IMG/VR virus record: IMGVR_UViG_3300043775_001652
Location: 1 to 31,705 of that record
Direction: 5' to 3' (one strand)
DNA length: 31,705 nt
From: a virus
Positions within the stretch are counted from its first letter, which is position 1; each line of letters starts with the position of its first letter. A program made the translations under genes and the position numbers. This document shows, in pieces, positions 4,413 to 31,705 of this stretch. A model generated the notes under the pieces. It saw only the letters and a list, made by a program, of their open reading frames with translations. It did no database searches and had not been told where the DNA came from.

Positions 4413-4990
4413 TATTGATTCAGCCAGCATTTGGCTGGCAAGTTTTGCGGTTTATTGAAATTGTTTTTGTCGAAAAACACAGCACTCCGGTTATCGTGGC
4501 GCATTATAGAACAACCTCCCAAAGAACGCGAGGTTTTTGTTTCTCTTGCTTGCCGGATACTTACAGATAGCCGATCTGTTGCGGTTATGCAGGATTGGCA
4601 TCCACTACGCCACTTGATATTCTTCGGGCATTTGGCGCAGACCTTGGCTCTCGCTTCAGCCAATTCATCCGTGACGAAATCAATTCGTTTGTTGGTTGTC
4701 AGGGTATTCTTTGCCCAAACTGTAATATCTGTAAGAAGTTCTGTTTGCTGGTTTGGTTGTTCGATGCTGGTAACAACAACCATATCAACGCCATGACAAT
4801 AGTTCGGGAAATTACCGCAAACGAAAGAATTAACATCGCCAACCACATCGCCAAGCGGAAGATTGTTTTCAGCGCGATAGTTCCTAACCACATCGTAAAG
4901 ATTGTCGAGACTCAAACCTTCAAGCCGGACATCGCCGTCTTGATAATGCCATCCTCCCGGAGGGACCATGCCCCAAATTGGTTTAGCCAT
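4412..4990 (-). CDS. Cys-rich phage protein, putative zinc-binding, between TET-associated GT and portal
   Basis: This 192-residue protein begins MAKPIWGMVPPGGWHYQDGD and contains YDVVRNYRAENNLPLGD, an N-terminal module I associate with conserved phage proteins near portal genes. The second half has a Cys cluster (CAKC, nine residues on WRSGCQSC, then GGCS and AKCW) that probably binds zinc. Function is unknown. It overlaps the glycosyltransferase gene by eight bases, so it is translated from the same message. It may be a structural accessory protein, or it may recognise modified DNA during packaging. Neither is shown by the sequence. Confidence 0.7.
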   Translation of the reverse strand: MAKPIWGMVPPGGWHYQDGDVRLEGLSLDNLYDVVRNYRAENNLPLGDVVGDVNSFVCGNFPNYCHGVDMVVVTSIEQPNQQTELLTDITVWAKNTLTTNKRIDFVTDELAEARAKVCAKCPKNIKWRSGCQSCITATDRLSVSIRQARETKTSRSLGGCSIMRHDNRSAVFFDKNNFNKPQNLPAKCWLNQ

Positions 4991-5711
4991 AAGGTAAATT
5001 CTTATACATGATTTCTATTTGGTTTACTCGCGTTTTGTGAGTTCTAACAAGATGTTTCCACTTGGTCAAAATATATGAGTTGCATTTCTGCTCACGAAAG
5101 AAGTTCCGGTAAGTGTTTGCGCCTCCTTTGTTCTCGCGGTGCGGAAAGGCTCCTGAAAGATTGTCGAGCCGAATAACCTTGTGGCCTCTCGTTGTGAGAG
5201 ACAGAAACATATCGTAATCCTCTTTCAAGTCGGCTTTCTCGTCGTAGAGGAAATTAGTGTCGATCAGAACGCAATCATTCACAACCAACTTGTTTACAGT
5301 ATAGTATGTTTTCTTGTAGTTGCGCGTATTGTTCTGAATTGAAAGTCCAACCAGCTTCACAGGATCAGACGCCGCATAAGCCACCATTTTCTTGAAAACA
5401 TAATCAAAATCAACTGACTTGGCTTTCTTCTCGTTCAGAAACTCGTAGAATCTTGTAACATCATCGCTGAGTTGCAAACATAGCGAACATCCGTTGTTCT
5501 TGGCATCGGTAATCGCTTTGTTCCTCGCGGCAACGATATTGCCGTCCACTTCTACAACTCCTTTTGCGCCGTTCGTTTCATAGGACTTTTTTTCGTTCGG
5601 GCAGACATACCAGCTTGGGTCAATGTGCTTCTTGATCTTCTGCACATTCTCTGGTCGTTTGGTCGAAATGCAGGCGACCCATATTGGTTTTCCTGATATA
5701 TTGTGAATCAT
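4983..5711 (-). CDS. TET-associated DNA glycosyltransferase (TAGT / GREB1-type fold)
   Basis: This 242-residue protein has the features of a GT-A-type transferase. VACISTKRPENV forms an N-terminal strand and nucleotide-binding loop (residues 12-23). AARNKAI lies at 61-67, followed by LQLSDDV at 79-85, the expected acidic metal and nucleotide-sugar site. LKEDYDMFL (162-170) and a conserved-looking FPHRENKGGANTY (189-201) complete the pattern. This arrangement, next to a TET/JBP dioxygenase, matches the TET-associated glycosyltransferase family known from phages, which adds a sugar to the 5-hydroxymethyl group of modified cytosine. It overlaps the TET gene as ATGA, so the two are co-translated. 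The sugar donor cannot be read from the sequence. Confidence 0.8.
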   Translation of the reverse strand: MIHNISGKPIWVACISTKRPENVQKIKKHIDPSWYVCPNEKKSYETNGAKGVVEVDGNIVAARNKAITDAKNNGCSLCLQLSDDVTRFYEFLNEKKAKSVDFDYVFKKMVAYAASDPVKLVGLSIQNNTRNYKKTYYTVNKLVVNDCVLIDTNFLYDEKADLKEDYDMFLSLTTRGHKVIRLDNLSGAFPHRENKGGANTYRNFFREQKCNSYILTKWKHLVRTHKTRVNQIEIMYKNLPYG

Positions 5712-7179: not shown

Positions 7180-9057
7180 CTAATCAGAAAAATCTACAAA
7201 CTGCATCATGTCAACAACGCTCTCTTGGTTTTTTTCCATAGGAGCTTCGCGTTTGCTTTCCTCGGTCATTGTGGCGATTGAACCGGAGCGTTGGCGCATT
7301 AGGTAAACGAGGATTGCAAGCGAATCTAACGAATCAGGACTGCTTGACCGAGTTCGCTTGCAGTAGTCTCCTTTGCTCTCGACCCTGACCAACCCCTGAC
7401 CCGCTTGTTTGTAGCGTCTGCCTGTGGCTTGGCGAACGAGTTGTTCATTCCGGAACCCCGGACTGATCTTGAGATATTCAAATTCCAGATATTTTGATAG
7501 CCCGAAAAGCAATTCGGTAACAACTCCGCTATATAACTCGTTGGCTTGTTTGCTGTCTTCACCAAGGATTCTTGTCTCCGATGCGGCCCAAGAGTAGTTG
7601 ACGCCCATTACTTCTTGCCCAAACAAGGTGCAAAGCGAATCATGGATTCCTGATCCGTTACCCGTTCGATCAACAGCAAGCCAATTTGGTTTGATCCGCA
7701 TACTCTTACAGAATTTGATAATAGCCTGCGTTTGTTCAAGCGTGGCTCTCTTTGGGAAAGGAATCTGCGAGTCGAGTTGCAAGGCTGTTTTCGGGGACTT
7801 GAACTCATGAAACTTTCCGGCTTGGTCATTCCAGCCATCACACAGGCCAAATCTTCCGTATGAGCATATCACTTGGTCGTTGCCTTCCAGCGCAAGATCG
7901 AATGCGGCCAGCGGAACGACAGGGCCAATGAAACGCAAATTCCCAAGAGCGTTGTTCATCATTGCAGGCGTTATGATCATCATTGCCTGACCTTCCTCGG
8001 GGAACCATCCGCGAGCCATCGTCATCGCCTCTGCCGTTCTTCCACGGCTCATGTATCCCATGAATCCCTGATATGTCTGTAAGCCAGCGAAAACGATCTT
8101 TTGCTGTTCGACATTCTCGCACTTTGCCGCATCCAGACGCAGGACATGGTAGCCCTCTTTGGATTCCCACTCGAAATCATCCTCGCAGTCTATTGATCCC
8201 CATCCGTTGACGGGTTCACAGCGTTGGCCGAAGTCGCTGGTGCGGTCTTTTGGGTTGCTTGCTCCGAAGATTTTGATGCGGCCACGGCATTCATTAACAT
8301 CCGAAGTTGATATAATGTTGTTGACGCCTTCCCATACTCCGGCAGGCACCTCCTCGGCCTCGTCAAGAATAACATGGGTTCGTGATAGCCTTCCCCATTT
8401 TCCGTGCGGTTGCGTAAAGCGTGGCGTTGGGTGGAATCCGCGAAGTGTTCCGTGGCCTGATTCACCTTTCGGGATGGCAACGAGGTGGATGCCTTGCTTG
8501 GCGTCCGTTGACGCTTGAATGCTGGTAACCAACTCGTCAGTTCTTTGAAATTCCGGTTTGACGAGAGCCATGCGGTGAAAGTTCTTAATGCTGGCAAAGA
8601 TGTTCCTTTCGGCGTGTTCGCGGGTTAGCGAAATCACTTTGATGTTGGTGTAAAACGGGTCACGATACCAATCGAGATAGAACCATGCCGCCGCACCAAA
8701 GGTTTTGCCCATGGCTCCCGCTCCTTGAACCAGAACCAAGTCGTTGTCGAATAGGCATCGCCATGTGTCGCGGCTTGACTTCGGACGCCAGTCATAGACA
8801 TCCTGCCCCCAAAGAATGGTTGCGCTGGCTTCAAACTGATCTTTGTCGAGAAGGCTCTGGACAAATTGCAGGATTATCTGCCGAGATAAATTTTCGTTCA
8901 GTTCGATTTCGTTTGGCGGATTCTTGGTTCCCTCACGCAAAATGATTTCTGCGCCGTAGAGCATTCCCATCTTTTCGTCTGACTGAACAGCGTTGCGGAT
9001 TTTCATGGCAATGTTGATTGCCGATTCAACTGTTCGGGATGTCGGTCGGATAGCCAT
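7180..9057 (-). CDS. terL: Terminase large subunit (packaging ATPase/nuclease)
   Basis: This 625-residue protein has the two-domain build of large terminases. Walker A is GAGAMGKT (112-119) and Walker B with catalytic Glu is VILDEAEEV (229-237). A coupling motif-like FGASNPKDRT lies at 264-273. The C-terminal RNase H-like nuclease shows acidic strands AAFDLALEGND (384-394) and LAVDRTGNGSG (460-470), with a late DSLDSLAIL. The enzyme translocates phage DNA into the prohead and cuts it. The gene starts within the TAATG junction after the small-subunit gene, the usual order. Confidence 0.93.
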   Translation of the reverse strand: MAIRPTSRTVESAINIAMKIRNAVQSDEKMGMLYGAEIILREGTKNPPNEIELNENLSRQIILQFVQSLLDKDQFEASATILWGQDVYDWRPKSSRDTWRCLFDNDLVLVQGAGAMGKTFGAAAWFYLDWYRDPFYTNIKVISLTREHAERNIFASIKNFHRMALVKPEFQRTDELVTSIQASTDAKQGIHLVAIPKGESGHGTLRGFHPTPRFTQPHGKWGRLSRTHVILDEAEEVPAGVWEGVNNIISTSDVNECRGRIKIFGASNPKDRTSDFGQRCEPVNGWGSIDCEDDFEWESKEGYHVLRLDAAKCENVEQQKIVFAGLQTYQGFMGYMSRGRTAEAMTMARGWFPEEGQAMMIITPAMMNNALGNLRFIGPVVPLAAFDLALEGNDQVICSYGRFGLCDGWNDQAGKFHEFKSPKTALQLDSQIPFPKRATLEQTQAIIKFCKSMRIKPNWLAVDRTGNGSGIHDSLCTLFGQEVMGVNYSWAASETRILGEDSKQANELYSGVVTELLFGLSKYLEFEYLKISPGFRNEQLVRQATGRRYKQAGQGLVRVESKGDYCKRTRSSSPDSLDSLAILVYLMRQRSGSIATMTEESKREAPMEKNQESVVDMMQFVDFSD

Positions 9058-11913: not shown

Positions 11914-13029
11914 TCAATACGGATATGTTTTCATCAGAGGTGTAAGCCCATTGCATTCTCCATACCAGCCTTTGCCAGTATATACATCCAGAACATCTTT
12001 GAAATACTTCTCGTAAAGTCTTCCAACTCTATACAGAGAGAAGTTTTCAGCCCATAGGCGACAATCTTTTGATTTTATCATTCCTGATTCAATTAGCTGA
12101 ACCGCTCTAACAAAATCACCCATCGTCCGGCATCTGTATCCCGTTACTCCGTGGAGATTGTTTTCCGCGAAACTCCCCCAATCAGTAGTAATCGTTGGAG
12201 TCCCGCAGAAAAGGTTTTCAACTTGAACTCCTCCGAACGGCTCAATGTATTGCGAAGGGATGAAAGATGCCTTGGCGTTGCTCATCAGGTTTTTTCTTTT
12301 TTCTGAATCCGCGTAGCCGACATATTCCACATGGTCTGGCAGATTGTAGCCTTGTTCAATTTGACCAGCGACAATCAATTTAACATTCGCCAGTTTTGCC
12401 GCTTGAAATGCGATTTCGCATCCTTTTCCGCCATAAACTCGGCCAAGGTAAAGGTAGTAATCGCCTTTGTTTTCCTTGTATTCAAAATCCTCGGGATCGA
12501 AATAGTTCGGAATCACAACTTCATACCAATCTTGGCGGCAAGTTCCAACGGATTCCAATCCGCAATAAGCGTGGTAGATGGCATAGGATTCAAAGATTTT
12601 CCATCGCGCCCAATGCCCTCCTGCGTATCCGATTCCCGGCTCCACAACAATCATGTCGCCGTGAGCGTCACAAATTGCCCTGACGCCTGAACCCCAAAAG
12701 GGAAGAAGGAAATCGTTCGGTTGTTTTCGTTCTGCAATTTCCCGAATCGCGTTTGCGTAGAAAGTTTGATACGCATGGTCGTTGGTATCGAACTTGAAGA
12801 ATGTTTTCTTCCAGTCGTGGGAACCATAACTTTTCTGGAAATCGTCGTTGGTAAGAACTGTGACATGCTCATCGCATACCAGTTCTGAATCTTCATGGCC
12901 GTAATGAATGATCTCATGCCCGAGGTCTTTCATCATTTTCCCGAATTTCAGAACCTTTTGCGTGTAAGCACAAGCTACAAATTCTTTATTCGTAACAGTA
13001 TGCGGCAATCCAAGAATGTGAAATCTCAT
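11914..13029 (-). CDS. Glycosyltransferase, GT-B fold (GT4-like)
   Basis: This 371-residue protein has a Rossmann-type N-terminus (MRFHILGLPHTVTNKEF). Its C-terminal donor domain shows LYLGRVYGGKG (193-203), KLIVAG (217-222) and the EX7E signature EPFGGVQVE (263-271). TPTITTDWGSFAE completes the family pattern. Such enzymes move a sugar from a nucleotide donor; the acceptor is unknown. In phages they modify DNA bases, virion proteins or host surface polysaccharide. With TET and TET-associated glycosyltransferase genes in the same genome, decoration of modified DNA is a reasonable hypothesis but not shown. The start follows the MazG stop by two bases (TAA-AT-ATG). Confidence 0.85.
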   Translation of the reverse strand: MRFHILGLPHTVTNKEFVACAYTQKVLKFGKMMKDLGHEIIHYGHEDSELVCDEHVTVLTNDDFQKSYGSHDWKKTFFKFDTNDHAYQTFYANAIREIAERKQPNDFLLPFWGSGVRAICDAHGDMIVVEPGIGYAGGHWARWKIFESYAIYHAYCGLESVGTCRQDWYEVVIPNYFDPEDFEYKENKGDYYLYLGRVYGGKGCEIAFQAAKLANVKLIVAGQIEQGYNLPDHVEYVGYADSEKRKNLMSNAKASFIPSQYIEPFGGVQVENLFCGTPTITTDWGSFAENNLHGVTGYRCRTMGDFVRAVQLIESGMIKSKDCRLWAENFSLYRVGRLYEKYFKDVLDVYTGKGWYGECNGLTPLMKTYPY

Positions 13030-24832: not shown

Positions 24833-25390
24833 TCATTCGGTTAGCGATGGGTTTTCCTCGCAGGAATAAATTTCATTTTGCAATTTTAACTTCGGCACTT
24901 CTCCGCCCGTAAAACTGCGATCTTCAAAACGCACTCTGTTTGTCGGCTGAATTGTCAATCTGCCATTATCCAGTTTGCAGAACATAAATTCCTTAGATTG
25001 TTCGGGAGCTTCGCTGAACCCATCATCCAAAGGCGCGATAGTGAATAGATAATCACCCTCATACAACTTGCCTCCAACTTTGCAGGTAACTTTCAATCCT
25101 CGCAGATAGGTGTATTCCTCCGCTGACCAGCGCGTCCCGTAGCAATCCCACATCTGCGCCTGCTCAACTGACCATTCCTCCGGATTCTCGGTAAAAGAGA
25201 GAGCATGGGGCGGCAGGGAGCGATAAACCGCACCACACTCTAACATCACATGGCATCCCCACGCTCTGCCGGGAAAACTGACCAACCCAAACCAGACTGC
25301 CGGAACAAACCCGCACGGCTCCTCATGGGTGAAACGGGAATCAACAAACACATACCTGTGTTTTGGGAGTGAGCCAATCGCGGAAAACAT
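24833..25390 (-). CDS. Conserved phage protein of unknown function
   Basis: This 185-residue protein contains CHVMLECGAVYRSLPPHALS, VEQAQMWDCYGTRWSAEEY and DYLFTIAPLDDGFSEAPEQ. LDNGRLTIQPTNRVRFED and a closing SFTGGEVPKLK follow. The run of 'PPHALSF', 'AQMWDCYG..WSA.EY', 'PEQ.KEF.F..LDNGRL...PTNRV.F' is strongly conserved-looking and recalls phage proteins next to late genes, but I know no function. It starts as TGATG after the giant gene. Its stop is followed by an unusually long open frame. Confidence 0.7.
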   Translation of the reverse strand: MFSAIGSLPKHRYVFVDSRFTHEEPCGFVPAVWFGLVSFPGRAWGCHVMLECGAVYRSLPPHALSFTENPEEWSVEQAQMWDCYGTRWSAEEYTYLRGLKVTCKVGGKLYEGDYLFTIAPLDDGFSEAPEQSKEFMFCKLDNGRLTIQPTNRVRFEDRSFTGGEVPKLKLQNEIYSCEENPSLTE

Positions 25391-28300
25391 CAGATTTTAG
25401 GATCGTAGTAATCGATGAAATGTTCAACCCAATCAATCATCTCTTGTTTGGTCTGTTCTTTTGTCTTTTTCGACATATCAAAAATCACGCTACCATCTAT
25501 ATTCTCATCTTTTCCGTGGAGAATATAAATCTTGTCTCCAGCAGGGGAATATGGAACTAAAAATTTTCTACCAACTGAAATTGTTCTATTAAATGCACCA
25601 TCAAAATTTTTTGTGAACATTCTTCCAATAAGATCTTCAGCAATTTGAGGTCCAGAAATTTCTGAAGAAACCAACTCCTGCCAGTTGAAATTTGCATATT
25701 TATTGATCGCATTTATATAATAATCAACATCTGGATCAATTTCAGTATTTTTCTGTTTCTTGGCCTCTTCATCAAACAATTTCTTCAACTCTTTTTGGCT
25801 ATCAGGCGAGTATGCAGTTTTTGCTTTATTCCCATACATTTCAAATTCATCCAACCATGTTTGTGAATTTTTCCCAGCCGCGATTGCATCCGTGATTGAT
25901 TTCTTCGTATAATCAATTTCATACGGAGACATGAATTCCAGAGATTGCGGCCAAAATTTTTCTAAATCTGTTTCCTTTTCTCCGTAGAATTCTTTTTTCT
26001 CGTTCTCGTAATCCAGAACCGAGTTATACCATTTCTTGAGTTCTTCGACATTTTCATCGGATAAGTCTCCGAAAAACTCGCCAAGATTATCAGATACAGA
26101 TTCTCCGCCTTCCGTGTCATCCCAAGCTAATCCTTCTTTTGCCGCTTTTGCCAATTCCAATACTTGAGAAGAATTCATAAACTTCGGAATTTTCTCTAAT
26201 GATGTTGGATTTGCAGAAAACATCGCTTTTGCCGCGTCCTTTATTGCGCTGTTAATCGAATTGTTTAAGAAATTTATGTCTCCAGTCGATAAAAGAGCAC
26301 TCATTAAAGAGTTATACGATTCTCCTAATTTGCTTTTAACTTTCTCCAATACTTTTTCCGGCGTCTCAAGAGTAGAGCCTTTCTCTTGTTGAGTCCAAGC
26401 GGAATCTAATATCGTGTTAACAACTTCATCAGGCAACACGCCTTTCAATTTTTTCGATTGATTCGCATACCATTGGTCGTATTGAAATTTTTTGTATTCT
26501 TTGAAATCAGCGATAGCTTTCTCTTCAGAATATACAGTTTCTATTGCATCCGGATTCTCGTATGGCTTTCCGGTGACGGACGGCCACAATTCCTCAGCAG
26601 GAGCTTTCTTCGCCCAATCTGCATACATGTTTCCCCATTTTGTTAAGCCTTCAATTTTGTTTGGCGGGAAATACTTCAACTCGGTTTTAATCAGAATTTT
26701 CAGAGGCTGAGTTGAGATTTCTCCTGTCTTCGGATTTACGATTAACTGTTTCAGTTGTTCTATCGTCATTGCGATAGGCGTCAAATCTGGTGACAAAGAA
26801 GGCTCGGATGATGGGGCTTTTGTTTGCGCTAAAGAAGCTGGCGGTTTCGGGATGAATGAAAATTCAACATCCTCGTATTCTTTCATGTTACCGACAATAT
26901 CGTTATATTTACCAAGAATTTGCTCAAGGAAGCCAGATTTTGCGTCTGCGCTTGATTCATGTGGAAAAGGAATTGAATAATCGTCTCCTTTTTCTGTTTT
27001 GATATGCAGGGCATCTCCGTTTAATATAAATGCGGCACTTAATGGCTTCCCGTCAAAATATGCTGTCATTTGAGTTGCGATTGGCTTATCTCCATTCTCA
27101 AAATTTTCATATTCTCCTTTTGGGCTATACACAGGAGTCCATTTGATAAATTTATCTAGCGCGGGTGCTTTTGTTTGTTCTTTTACTGGCGTAATATTGT
27201 AAAGATATGCATATACGGAATTATCGTAAGCTGGCGAACTTCTATTGAAAGTTGCTTCATCAATTAAAACGCCATCTTTGTAAGTTTTAATCGTAAAAGT
27301 ATTCGCTGGAACATTTGTCATTCCAGAAAAAACTAATCCTTTATACGGAACCATCGTTCCAATATCTGATTCCGTATGCAGGTGCATCAATTTGTGAATC
27401 TGTTGTTTCAATTCAACAATATCAGCAGGAATGATATTTCCCCCTTCCTTTACTGGCGCGGAAACTTTTGCGAGATTTGATTTTTCAGGAATTCCAATCG
27501 GAGGCCCATATTCTTTTTCCTCCGTTTTGAATGATTCAGCAACAAGATCTTTAATGTCTTGCGGCACATTCCGCTTCGGAGCCATCTTTTGCGCCAACAA
27601 TAATCTTGCGTATTGAATTACATCTGGATTTACCCCGAGTTTTTCCAGTTCCTTCGATGCCGTTGAATTTACGAGCCATTTTTGCAATTCTGCGTTGATG
27701 TCTTTGCCGGAGCCTTTCGGAGCCTTAACATTGATGTCTTGATATATGTTCTCTCTGTTAGGCTTCAACGCCTTCATGACTTTTTCGATTTCAGATACGA
27801 CATCTTCACCGATAACAGAAACAGCATTTTCTCTGCGCTTATCAATTGTATTATCTCCAATGTCCATCAATGCGGGAGTTGTGATTTTTTGCGCGGCTGA
27901 ACTTGCCATTGGCGTCAATTCCCGTGGGCTTGCGGCGTGATATTTGAAATCCAGCATATCCTGCAACCATTTATAACCGCCCTCGCGCTGGTATTTTTTG
28001 ATCTTGTTGAAAACAGTTGCCGTGTTGTGTTGCAAATCATAGGCATTGTCGATTGATTTTATCAAAGATTCGGTATCGTTGGCTTGATTAACCATCCGCA
28101 ATCCTTCGGCAATATTTCCCCAAGGATTTCCGCCATAACTTGAATTCCAGTTTCCTTTTCTGAAAAGTTTCTCAACAATGTTACTGAAGTCTTCGATGGT
28201 CGTTCCAGTCTCTTCCAGAGCTTTCCTGACAGCGGCATTCGATAATTGATAGCCTTGCGAGCTTCCTTTTGTAATCCTTGCCCTCGGCGATTCAGGATAC

Positions 28301-31300
28301 ATTGGTTTCAGGTATTTTTGCGCGTATTCAGGAAGGTTTTTGTCAGAGACCGCATTGTAAGCATCGTAAATTTCTGAATACGCCTTCATGAAAGGATTAT
28401 CCAACAATTGGTCTGGCTGGCGATTTGATTTGTAGTGGCGAAGTTCTGCTGAAATTGAAAACAAAAGAGAATCCAGCATGTGCTTCTTCATTCCGCTGGT
28501 GAGTTCTTTAACTGCGTCTTCAAGATTCGGCCCGTATTTTTCATATCGTAATCCGGTTCTCGTTGGCATTTGCATTCCTTTTATTTTTTCCCAATCTTTG
28601 CCAAAGTAACTTGCTTTATCGCCAACAGATGTCAGCAAATAGAAATCCGCCATAATCTGCCGTGGGTCTTTCGGCATAGAATATGGGACATAGGGCATGT
28701 ATTGCGGTTGCCCAGCGCGAACTGATTTTTGCATTTCTGGCGTGATGTTTACTCGCCAGATTGGGGTTGTTTGAGGAGAGTCACGCAATTTCTCCCATTC
28801 TGCATATCGAGAGTTAATTGTTTCATCATCAAGAGTTGCATCAACCTCCTGACCATATTTCTGCATATGCCACTTGTCCCATGATGGAAAGTTAGATTCA
28901 CCAGTATCAATCGATGACTTCTCAACTTTTCCGCTCATCTTATCAACATACCTGCCGATTTCTTTCGGAAGCCTAGTGTCGTAGTATCCTTTCATGCCTT
29001 CTCCGCCGATTTTTAAGCTATTACCTTTATAAACAACAGATTTCTCTCCATTTATAATTTTATCTGCCATCTCTTTTCCAACGACATCTGAAATATTTTT
29101 TGCATTAGGAATTAGATTTATATTTTGACCAAATCCAGAAATGATATTCCCATTAATATCGATTCCGAAAATAACAGATTGAATATTTTCACTGCGTTTC
29201 GGTTCTAAACGAATCATCCTGTAGCTTTCTTGGTTTTCCGGCAAAGAATCAATCCGGTATGGCAAATCATCTACAACTATTGATTCTACCTGCTTGCTCA
29301 AATCATACCGATCAGCTTGCGTTGCTCCATCCGTCCAACCGATCCATTGTTTTCCAGAATCTACGGCATCACGCAATGCCATCTTAAACATTTGCAACGG
29401 CCATTCTTTTCGGAATGGCGCGTCGGGAATTCTATCGTCTAATCTTGTATCAAGATTGGGTTGATCTTCTGGCTTTAATTTCTCTACTGTGAATTTTGAT
29501 TCTGGGAACCCAGCACGAAGCCTTTCTCCGTATTCCAATTCATAAGCATCAAGATCGCTTTTTGTTTTAAATCTTGAATGAATAATGCCATCTTTATAAA
29601 TTCCATATTCCCAATCAGGAATAGCTTGATCTCCTTTATATCCCTTTTTCCTTCCCTGCTGGTGTCTGTCAGACTGAATTTCCTCAATAAACAGCCCTTC
29701 TTTTCCTTCGGCATCTTTCCGCTCATTTATTCGAATGTGAGCTACATAGTTTGGGATGTTTGAGAAATGAGAGGAGGTGTATATTGATTTTTCACCAGAA
29801 GGTTTTCTAAGTGTAGATTCTGATGTTTGCGCCATTTGCAAAGCGTAATCACGAGCAATTTCTTCAGGATATAACCCTCCGGGTATTGAACCGCTCACAA
29901 CACCATCTTTTGTTTTAAAGTTCCAATTAGATTTTCCTTTTGTTAAAATAATATCATCATAATTGTATTGTTTTGTTCCGGTTTCTTTTTCAGGCATTGT
30001 CAAAACAACCTCACGATAGTTTTCACCTCCGGGAAGAACTTTGTTCATTCCTTCTTCGCCATATTTCGGAACTTCTTTTCTCCTTCTTCGATAAGATTCT
30101 AAAGCGTTATCCCATGCTTCTGTCCTTGTTTTTCCAGTTGCCCTGACGCTTGGACTTCCAGATGACATATCCTCTGGATCAACGACCCACCAAAAACCAT
30201 TTTTTTGTTTTTCCGCATACCACGATGATGGGTAAACAGCGTTTTTATCATATCCGATAACAACTTCTTCAAACTTAACTTTTCCTTCGTTTGCCATGTA
30301 ATCCAACAACGCTTGCTTTGGAACCTTTCCGTTGTTTTCCTGAGCGATGTTTTCGATTGCTTGCTGAATACCAGACCACTTCAATTCCTCTTGATTTGTG
30401 GATTTCACAGCAAGTGCCTTAGCTTGTTCTGGCGAGAATGTTTGCTGGTTCGCATTGCGAATACCTTCCTCAAGGCGAGAGTAGAATCCGTATTGATTTA
30501 CGGCTGGCTCTTGCGGCATGTATTGAACATCAGGTCTAATCAAGCTAACCATTCCATTTCTACCCTCTACATCCTGCCAGTTTTGAGTTTGCTCTTGGAA
30601 TAATTTATTGCGAACTTTCCTTGCAGATGGTGATGTTTCGCCAACGATATTATCTATGTTATTTTCCTGTGCAACTTTAGCAATCTCTCTATAAAGAGCT
30701 TCGCCGTAGCCTTGGTTTAGATATTTGTCATTTACGAATGAGAAACCAACAACTAATGAGCCTCCAAACACGGAATAATCAGCTCTTCCTATTTGTTTCC
30801 CTGTTTTTGGGTCTTTCAACTCAACAAAACCATCAAATTCATTCCCATTGATAGATTTTATTTGTTTGTTTAACTGATATTCTGGCAATTTAGCTTTTCT
30901 CTCATCAAGTGAAGTTTGACTCAAATAATCATTTTCGGGAGGAATGAATTCAGCGCGAGCCATTGGCACCTGTTGGCCCTGTTGGCCCTGTTGACCCTTT
31001 TGTTGTTCCTGTTGGCCCTGTTGGCCCATTTCTGCCATGTCATATTCAGCATCCAAACGAGACATTTCAGCTTCTGTTTCGGCGTCAATATCTGTTGGGA
31101 TTTCAGAACGCTCTACGCTTGGCTCAATTCCCGGATCAAACATAGAAACAACCTGAATCTGCGGTTCTCCAGTTTCGCCCTGTGACACATACAAAGATTC
31201 AAACGGGAGCAAGTCATCACTCATCCGCAATTCGGACTCCAGTTGCTCCACATTGCCGCTGGCGATGGCTTGGCGGATTCTTGTTGCCGTCACGCTACCA

Positions 31301-31705
31301 TCAAGATTCTCCATCATGTCTTCTGGCGACTGCGGACGCGCAAGCGGATTGATTTCCGGCATGTAATTGTCCCGAAGTTTGCCGTAGTTCATTGGCAACT
31401 TTTGCGCGCTCATTTCGCTGTAATCATTGATGCGATCCAGCCTCCTTGACCGGACGATAATATCTATAGGGTCTTTGCCTTTTTGCCGTGGAAGCGTTGT
31501 TCTTTCAGGATTCGCCGCTTTTGTCTCTGCATTATAGACATTGAAAAGATCGTTGATTGCATTTTTCTTCCGTAGCGAAATATACGGGTCAGGGTCTAAT
31601 CCTTCTTCGCCATGTTTTCCTTGCGCGTGGTTGTCGAGGTATTTGATAACTGAATCCCAAAATTTCCCAGTATCCCCACCCCACGCCTGCAATCGCATAG
31701 GTTTC
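25390..31705 (-). CDS. Giant polyvalent phage protein with GNAT-like domain; 5' end beyond window
   Basis: The frame is open over the right edge; the first Met in view is 31698, giving 2102 residues, but the true start may lie outside. Visible modules: a Gln/Gly repeat (about 225-245); a GNAT-like acetyltransferase (about 290-390, VVGFSFVNDKYLNQGYGEAL); a 'LKWSGI ... VPKQALLDYMANEGKV' module (about 440-475); a 'LFIEEIQSDRHQQGRKKGY ... WIGWTDGATQADRYDL' module (about 665-795); and 'YDLQHNTATVFNKIKKY' (about 1220). These recur in large polyvalent phage proteins, thought to be injected with the DNA to act on the host. The last 800 residues are unassigned. Confidence 0.8.
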   Translation of the reverse strand, partial: KPMRLQAWGGDTGKFWDSVIKYLDNHAQGKHGEEGLDPDPYISLRKKNAINDLFNVYNAETKAANPERTTLPRQKGKDPIDIIVRSRRLDRINDYSEMSAQKLPMNYGKLRDNYMPEINPLARPQSPEDMMENLDGSVTATRIRQAIASGNVEQLESELRMSDDLLPFESLYVSQGETGEPQIQVVSMFDPGIEPSVERSEIPTDIDAETEAEMSRLDAEYDMAEMGQQGQQEQQKGQQGQQGQQVPMARAEFIPPENDYLSQTSLDERKAKLPEYQLNKQIKSINGNEFDGFVELKDPKTGKQIGRADYSVFGGSLVVGFSFVNDKYLNQGYGEALYREIAKVAQENNIDNIVGETSPSARKVRNKLFQEQTQNWQDVEGRNGMVSLIRPDVQYMPQEPAVNQYGFYSRLEEGIRNANQQTFSPEQAKALAVKSTNQEELKWSGIQQAIENIAQENNGKVPKQALLDYMANEGKVKFEEVVIGYDKNAVYPSSWYAEKQKNGFWWVVDPEDMSSGSPSVRATGKTRTEAWDNALESYRRRRKEVPKYGEEGMNKVLPGGENYREVVLTMPEKETGTKQYNYDDIILTKGKSNWNFKTKDGVVSGSIPGGLYPEEIARDYALQMAQTSESTLRKPSGEKSIYTSSHFSNIPNYVAHIRINERKDAEGKEGLFIEEIQSDRHQQGRKKGYKGDQAIPDWEYGIYKDGIIHSRFKTKSDLDAYELEYGERLRAGFPESKFTVEKLKPEDQPNLDTRLDDRIPDAPFRKEWPLQMFKMALRDAVDSGKQWIGWTDGATQADRYDLSKQVESIVVDDLPYRIDSLPENQESYRMIRLEPKRSENIQSVIFGIDINGNIISGFGQNINLIPNAKNISDVVGKEMADKIINGEKSVVYKGNSLKIGGEGMKGYYDTRLPKEIGRYVDKMSGKVEKSSIDTGESNFPSWDKWHMQKYGQEVDATLDDETINSRYAEWEKLRDSPQTTPIWRVNITPEMQKSVRAGQPQYMPYVPYSMPKDPRQIMADFYLLTSVGDKASYFGKDWEKIKGMQMPTRTGLRYEKYGPNLEDAVKELTSGMKKHMLDSLLFSISAELRHYKSNRQPDQLLDNPFMKAYSEIYDAYNAVSDKNLPEYAQKYLKPMYPESPRARITKGSSQGYQLSNAAVRKALEETGTTIEDFSNIVEKLFRKGNWNSSYGGNPWGNIAEGLRMVNQANDTESLIKSIDNAYDLQHNTATVFNKIKKYQREGGYKWLQDMLDFKYHAASPRELTPMASSAAQKITTPALMDIGDNTIDKRRENAVSVIGEDVVSEIEKVMKALKPNRENIYQDINVKAPKGSGKDINAELQKWLVNSTASKELEKLGVNPDVIQYARLLLAQKMAPKRNVPQDIKDLVAESFKTEEKEYGPPIGIPEKSNLAKVSAPVKEGGNIIPADIVELKQQIHKLMHLHTESDIGTMVPYKGLVFSGMTNVPANTFTIKTYKDGVLIDEATFNRSSPAYDNSVYAYLYNITPVKEQTKAPALDKFIKWTPVYSPKGEYENFENGDKPIATQMTAYFDGKPLSAAFILNGDALHIKTEKGDDYSIPFPHESSADAKSGFLEQILGKYNDIVGNMKEYEDVEFSFIPKPPASLAQTKAPSSEPSLSPDLTPIAMTIEQLKQLIVNPKTGEISTQPLKILIKTELKYFPPNKIEGLTKWGNMYADWAKKAPAEELWPSVTGKPYENPDAIETVYSEEKAIADFKEYKKFQYDQWYANQSKKLKGVLPDEVVNTILDSAWTQQEKGSTLETPEKVLEKVKSKLGESYNSLMSALLSTGDINFLNNSINSAIKDAAKAMFSANPTSLEKIPKFMNSSQVLELAKAAKEGLAWDDTEGGESVSDNLGEFFGDLSDENVEELKKWYNSVLDYENEKKEFYGEKETDLEKFWPQSLEFMSPYEIDYTKKSITDAIAAGKNSQTWLDEFEMYGNKAKTAYSPDSQKELKKLFDEEAKKQKNTEIDPDVDYYINAINKYANFNWQELVSSEISGPQIAEDLIGRMFTKNFDGAFNRTISVGRKFLVPYSPAGDKIYILHGKDENIDGSVIFDMSKKTKEQTKQEMIDWVEHFIDYYDPKI
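30971..31027 (-). repeat. 9-bp tandem repeat coding for Gly-Gln-Gln
   Basis: Five near-identical copies of TGTTGGCCC on the plus strand, interrupted by 12 diverged bases (30998-31009), encode a GQQGQQ-type linker in the giant protein. Repeat number could vary between strains or be misassembled. Confidence 0.85.

Follow-up and report, generated by a model that had tools for sequence, protein, structure and literature searches.

The window, i.e. the whole stretch of DNA that was analysed, is an entire IMG/VR record (31,705 bp, linear). It carries on its minus strand a polyvalent protein gene (25390..31698; residues 1-2102), recognised from its open reading frame and from its homologue in the relative L002. 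The gene is one uninterrupted frame, with 2102 amino acids from the first ATG and 2104 amino acids, free of stop codons, to the window edge. It covers 19.9% of the window, in agreement with the initial annotation, which had described a protein of over 2100 residues taking up one-fifth of it. As the window is the complete record, the gene is 5'-truncated by the contig end. Two near relatives were found by scanning IMG/VR. In L002, the gene is complete and encodes 3305 residues, of which residues 1172-3305 correspond approximately to the window protein. The L002 protein runs through the first codons of the window gene (..ASNKPMRLQAWGGD..) with 1171 extra N-terminal residues; the ATG at 31698 is therefore internal and not the true start. 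In relatives, the approximately 1170 missing residues comprise an N-terminal body followed by a zincin metallopeptidase. Profiles of individual modules, made from segments of the window and L002 proteins, were run on the two near relatives and on about 115 further loci that were fetched.

The modules of the window protein, all encoded on the minus strand, follow each other in the order connector, linker, GNAT, D4, D5, D6 and C-terminal region. The full-length relative, L002, has its modules arranged in this order too. By comparison with relatives, residues 1-110 (31369..31698) are the end of a conserved connector placed after the zincin, which itself lies outside the window. After the peptide NYMP (residues 111-114; 31357..31368), the first junction past the conserved N-terminal body, comes an acidic linker with GQQ repeats (residues 115-249; 30952..31356), whose DNA is about 95% identical to that of L002. 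A degenerate junction, EFIP (residues 250-253; 30940..30951), precedes the GNAT acetyltransferase module (residues 254-391; 30526..30939), which is followed by the junction peptide QYMP (residues 392-395; 30514..30525). Then come D4 (residues 400-485; 30244..30501), a small helical module found nearly always before D5, and D5 itself (residues 486-998; 28705..30243), a widespread alpha/beta module with lineage-specific inserts. A second QYMP (residues 999-1002; 28693..28704) separates D5 from the helical module D6 (residues 1003-1280; 27859..28692), and the protein ends with a C-terminal region (residues 1281-2102; 25393..27858) that is limited to this phage group and has no recognised fold. 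Several disparate predicted activities are gathered in one polypeptide (GNAT, D4-D5 and D6, with the zincin in the full-length relative), and its domains recur, differently arranged, in other polyvalent proteins. It belongs to this known kind, the polyvalent proteins, and its modules are unnamed. Sequence, predicted fold and the comparison with relatives bear out the initial annotation, which had announced a multi-effector polyvalent protein with a GNAT-like domain; the three or more further recurring modules that it counted are there if one takes the truncated zincin connector, D4-D5 and D6 as such. That account had no place for the half with the zincin, for junction peptides or for an exchange of modules.

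The stretch YLNQGYGEALYREIAKVA lies in the GNAT domain, which is weakly matched by Pfam alone (E 0.0011, below cut-off). Acetyltransf_1 was matched by five of the six relatives of this module (best 1.3e-11), and the module profile matches solved acetyltransferases (1y9w, E 3.4e-6). The AlphaFold model that includes the GNAT has a mean pLDDT of 73.6, and the GNAT fold in this model gives a VIA Z of 12.5 to GCN5 (5trm_C), with an rmsd of 3.1 over 116 residues. Judging from these profile matches and from the predicted fold, the GNAT domain is real. The outcome that the initial annotation had named as contradicting it, a single long protein of tail type with no effector folds, was not seen: structure prediction gave separate globular domains, one of them with the GNAT fold. 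The fold and most of motif A (R/Q-x-x-G-x-G/A) are common to the acetyltransferases GCN5 and RimI, but the window GNAT is embedded in a polyvalent protein, and its motif A reads LNQGYG, with the glycines kept and a Leu at the first position instead of R/Q. Elsewhere, the module is found after D5 in two loci (L026 and L029) and as two tandem copies in L049, which have the canonical RGKGYG with Arg first.

The scanned IMG/VR stretches include at least 550 relatives of D4-D5, and the GTDB genomes, across many phyla, at least 112. The pair is very widespread in prophages or mobile elements, archaeal MAG contigs among them (L197-L276, GTDB genomes). Neither Pfam nor NCBIfam contains a model of D4-D5, and no family name for D5 was found in Pfam, NCBIfam or PDB sequences. 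Part of D5 is spanned by PHROG 7348 ('endolysin', 2564 aa), a larger profile that probably owes its name to a different domain. The invariant residues of D5 are E673, Q675, S676, D677, Q680, G686, W766, G901, M902, Y906 and D907; since E673, Q675, S676, D677, Q680, Y906 and D907 are polar, D5 is probably an enzyme. The pattern EEIQSDxHQxGRxxGY and the strand order hinted that D5 might be a second, divergent GNAT; this candidate found no support in a hhalign profile comparison to the GNAT module, which gave a probability of 0.2%. In a PDB fold search with the model, the matches were taken up by the real GNAT and none was informative on D5. Carriers of D4-D5 include ART-PolyVal proteins (PF18760), such as that of Dolichospermum phage Dfl-JY45, with the same D4-D5 modules as the window, but searches of the window protein and of full-length L002 detected no ART domain. 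Other members of the family gave weak ART matches, and in one phage D4-D5 adjoins a GNAT-M15-ART gene. The Pseudomonas aeruginosa plasmid p382 (278 kb; L014, 1-13953) encodes a polyvalent protein of more than 4600 residues with ART-PolyVal and D4-D5, and polyvalent proteins of this type are found on large plasmids typed non-mobilizable.

D6 recurs in many phages. Large phages (contigs of about 29-140 kb) also encode it in stand-alone genes, which often form tandem arrays. These single genes encode about 400-600 residues and form arrays of four to six paralogues (L112:1080-9203; L119:4511-12415; L122:3083-8249). The last ~820 residues of the window protein are found in only three near relatives (L002, L003 and, in part, L099), with no family match and no solved relative, as expected from the initial annotation, for which some 800 C-terminal residues resembled nothing known. 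An AlphaFold prediction of the C-terminal 827 residues, made with three sequences, was uninterpretable (mean pLDDT 39.7). The region seems to contain divergent copies of a small beta-rich unit plus helix (residues ~1420-1650 and 1975-2102), and in L099 a part of it is duplicated (residues 2398-2657).

We then considered the part of the protein that lies outside the window and the surroundings of its gene. In an alignment of 13 sequences of relatives, the HExxH motif of the zincin and a downstream Glu are invariant. Among the 69 IMG/VR loci with the zincin, 66 have HExxH, while no relative of the zincin connector was found in GTDB genomes. The conserved N-terminal body and the zincin are probably the delivery and processing part of the protein. 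In L002, tail fibre, tailspike, tail-tubular-like and small internal-virion-like genes and a gene for a 569-residue protein come before the polyvalent gene (L006/L002 order), the tubular-like and internal-virion-like genes being assigned by their place in the row and by weak similarity to profiles such as phrog_511 ('internal virion protein', E 0.0003). In the gene order of T7, ejection proteins stand at the corresponding place. The polyvalent gene sits where short-tailed phages (T7 and related) encode ejection proteins, the synteny of which has been described in phages (PMC8954989). In addition, three lineages have a match to phrog_24864 in the gene just upstream of the polyvalent gene, and for two of them this gene is also matched by phrog_2534, whose annotation reads 'released from the phage upon host infection'. 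From the position of the gene among tail and ejection-protein genes, we infer that the protein would be packaged and enter the cell with the phage DNA. T7 gp16 and other ejection proteins (PMC8954989) resemble the window protein in gene position, in being the largest of the set and in mosaic domain content, but the window-type protein is two to three times longer and has effector-type domains. No Pfam or PHROG match to a family such as that of T7 gp16 was found for the window protein, nor was one found in Pfam for full-length L002.

Other genes of these genomes deserve mention. The gene directly downstream in the window (24833-25390, minus strand) encodes 185 aa that match phrog_3704 (E 7e-25), a PHROG with the name ferredoxin. 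A PAPS-reductase-like gene is found in L002 (1663-2625) among structural genes, upstream of the internal-virion-like genes. Two further window genes, both on the minus strand, encode a glucosyltransferase (4983-5711), a relative of the PHROG for HMC-DNA glucosyltransferase (phrog_842, E 9e-17), and another glycosyltransferase (11914-13029; phrog_3408, E 4e-180); both might serve in DNA or surface modification. The terminase large subunit (7180-9057, minus strand) has weak similarity to known ones (phrog_2, E 1.4e-7) and no match in 50,697 phage records, which indicates a poorly sampled phage group.

The presence of QYMP at both the GNAT-D4 and the D5-D6 borders of the window protein led to a systematic test of junction peptides. 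In this family, modules are set apart by a short peptide, [QRKN][FY][ML]P. In 93 proteins of the family there are 70 copies of the form [QR][FY]MP, vs. 2.1 in shuffles. Per 1000 residues, [QRK][FY][ML]P occurs 1.23 times in proteins with the zincin and 0.10 times in the others, a contrast that is inflated because zincin-less proteins are on average shorter, with fewer junctions. Of the 12 motifs in these zincin-less proteins, 7 are in 5'-truncated members. For an independent test set, loci were fetched by the zincin alone, without D5, which gave 21 new nonredundant proteins. Their regions C-terminal to the zincin contain 46 [QRKN][FY][ML]P peptides, compared with 1.8 expected (shuffle maximum 6), and their regions N-terminal to it contain none, compared with 1.3 expected. 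All but one of 127 sites lie outside the module cores, which make up 21% of the region C-terminal to the zincin. At 63 sites with unlike flanks, information is limited to about eight positions. In the AlphaFold model, both QYMP sites of the window protein are at or beside low-confidence breaks, the one between D5 and D6 being beside such a break. Moreover, in the L002 genome the motif is essentially limited to the polyvalent gene. The Met of the junctions was considered as a fossil or internal start codon; this was rejected, since 17 of the 63 sites have Leu and Met-free peptides are in use in other lineages.

Unbiased searches for short words repeated within single proteins revealed other junction peptides, namely SFSIG (L030), S-x-RKQ (L052) and ARFMP (L101). 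The peptide after D5 resembles the one before D4 more within a protein (13.7) than between proteins (7.3) in a set of 22 proteins that includes two truncated zincin-clade members (L016 and L036). This flank match was repeated with 50 independent proteins from bacterial genomes (10.4 within vs. 6.5 between), the permutation P of 0.0002 being the smallest possible in both sets. L030 and L052 have clear junction peptides and no HExxH in the same reading frame, so that the zincin cannot be the sole factor.

The window and L002 also differ at one of these junctions. At the same position, the window has the GNAT module and L002 an unrelated helical, D6-like module. The two DNA sequences are 94-95% identical before the break, similarity becomes undetectable past the EFIP codons, and identity is back at 96% from the QYMP codons of the GNAT-D4 border onward. 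Smaller lineage-specific inserts are found within D5 and near the C terminus. Modules are exchanged, duplicated and reordered between phages, and the best reading of these comparisons is that junctions would mark the sites of such exchange.

We consider it fairly probable that the window encodes the C-terminal two thirds of a polyvalent protein of about 3300 residues from a short-tailed phage, in which a delivery body and a zincin are followed by exchangeable modules, separated by junctions and putatively cut by the zincin. The packaged protein would enter the cell with the DNA, and its own zincin would cut at the junction peptides, which are the best candidates seen from sequence for processing sites of a polyvalent protein. 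Separate effectors would be released one by one, among them the GNAT, whose substrate would be a host protein. The junctions would double as exchange points for modules between phages. For phage polyvalent proteins in general, we tentatively propose, at slightly less than an even chance, a lineage-specific cleavage code: a border peptide would be read by the protease of the phage after injection, freeing the effectors, and modules could be added in frame between copies of the peptide.

The junction peptides might alternatively be recombination scars, i.e. short border homologies used for the exchange or homogenisation of modules, with no protease involved. The restart of DNA homology at the QYMP codons is in line with this, as are the differences in peptide between lineages and the excess of identical codons at the junctions of one protein (225 out of 374 vs. 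161 expected). However, codons differ in about 40% of matching junction residues and the changes are conservative (F/Y, M/L, Q/R/K/N), which argues for selection on the peptide, and twelve bases offer little homology for recombination. Scars without cleavage are rather unlikely, and the differing codons together with the excess of identical ones point to selection on the peptide combined with some duplication or recombination. The peptide could also be a docking or packaging signal, bound by a virion protein or a host factor to thread the modules through the portal or tail. Its place in linkers, its several copies per protein and its near restriction to one gene of the full-length relative would fit such a signal, which accounts less well for its absence from the N-terminal body and for its tie to zincin-bearing proteins; we regard this as quite improbable.

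It is also conceivable, though very improbable, that this is a large structural or tail-type protein whose GNAT-like and other domains are inactive remnants. The position among structural genes, the weak Pfam score and the Leu in motif A of the window GNAT would agree with such decay, but between phages modules change their order, are exchanged and are duplicated, as with the two GNATs of L049, and D5 retains fully invariant polar residues. As for cleavage by the zincin, the searched part of Iyer et al. 2017 (PMC5512222) predicts that zincins process polyvalent proteins, and gives P1 DdrB as processed and the N4 virion RNA polymerase as packaged uncut, though it has such a zincin. This last case counts against the cleavage model.

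The polyvalent proteins described in the searched part of Iyer et al. 2017 (PMC5512222) are also very large, with zincin, GNAT and other domains, and GNATs beside ART domains are reported there, but the D4-D5, D6 and C-terminal regions of the window match no Pfam or NCBIfam model. The N4 virion RNA polymerase is, according to the same part of that paper (PMC5512222), a giant injected protein with a zincin, as the window-type protein would be, but L002 showed no sign of an RNA polymerase domain. Neither a processing site for polyvalent proteins, nor junction peptides, their lineage-specific versions or a module difference at them, was found in the searched part of this paper (PMC5512222). In the part of the literature covered by our search, no paper describing the junction peptides was found. 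New here are the junction peptides, together with the difference in modules that falls at such junctions.

This analysis draws attention to D5, a widespread domain for which neither Pfam nor NCBIfam has a model. The junction peptide gives a simple marker of module borders in giant phage proteins, and a defined, lineage-specific peptide makes the idea of processing by the zincin directly testable. If true, a lineage-specific cleavage code would be the bacteriophage counterpart of viral polyproteins.
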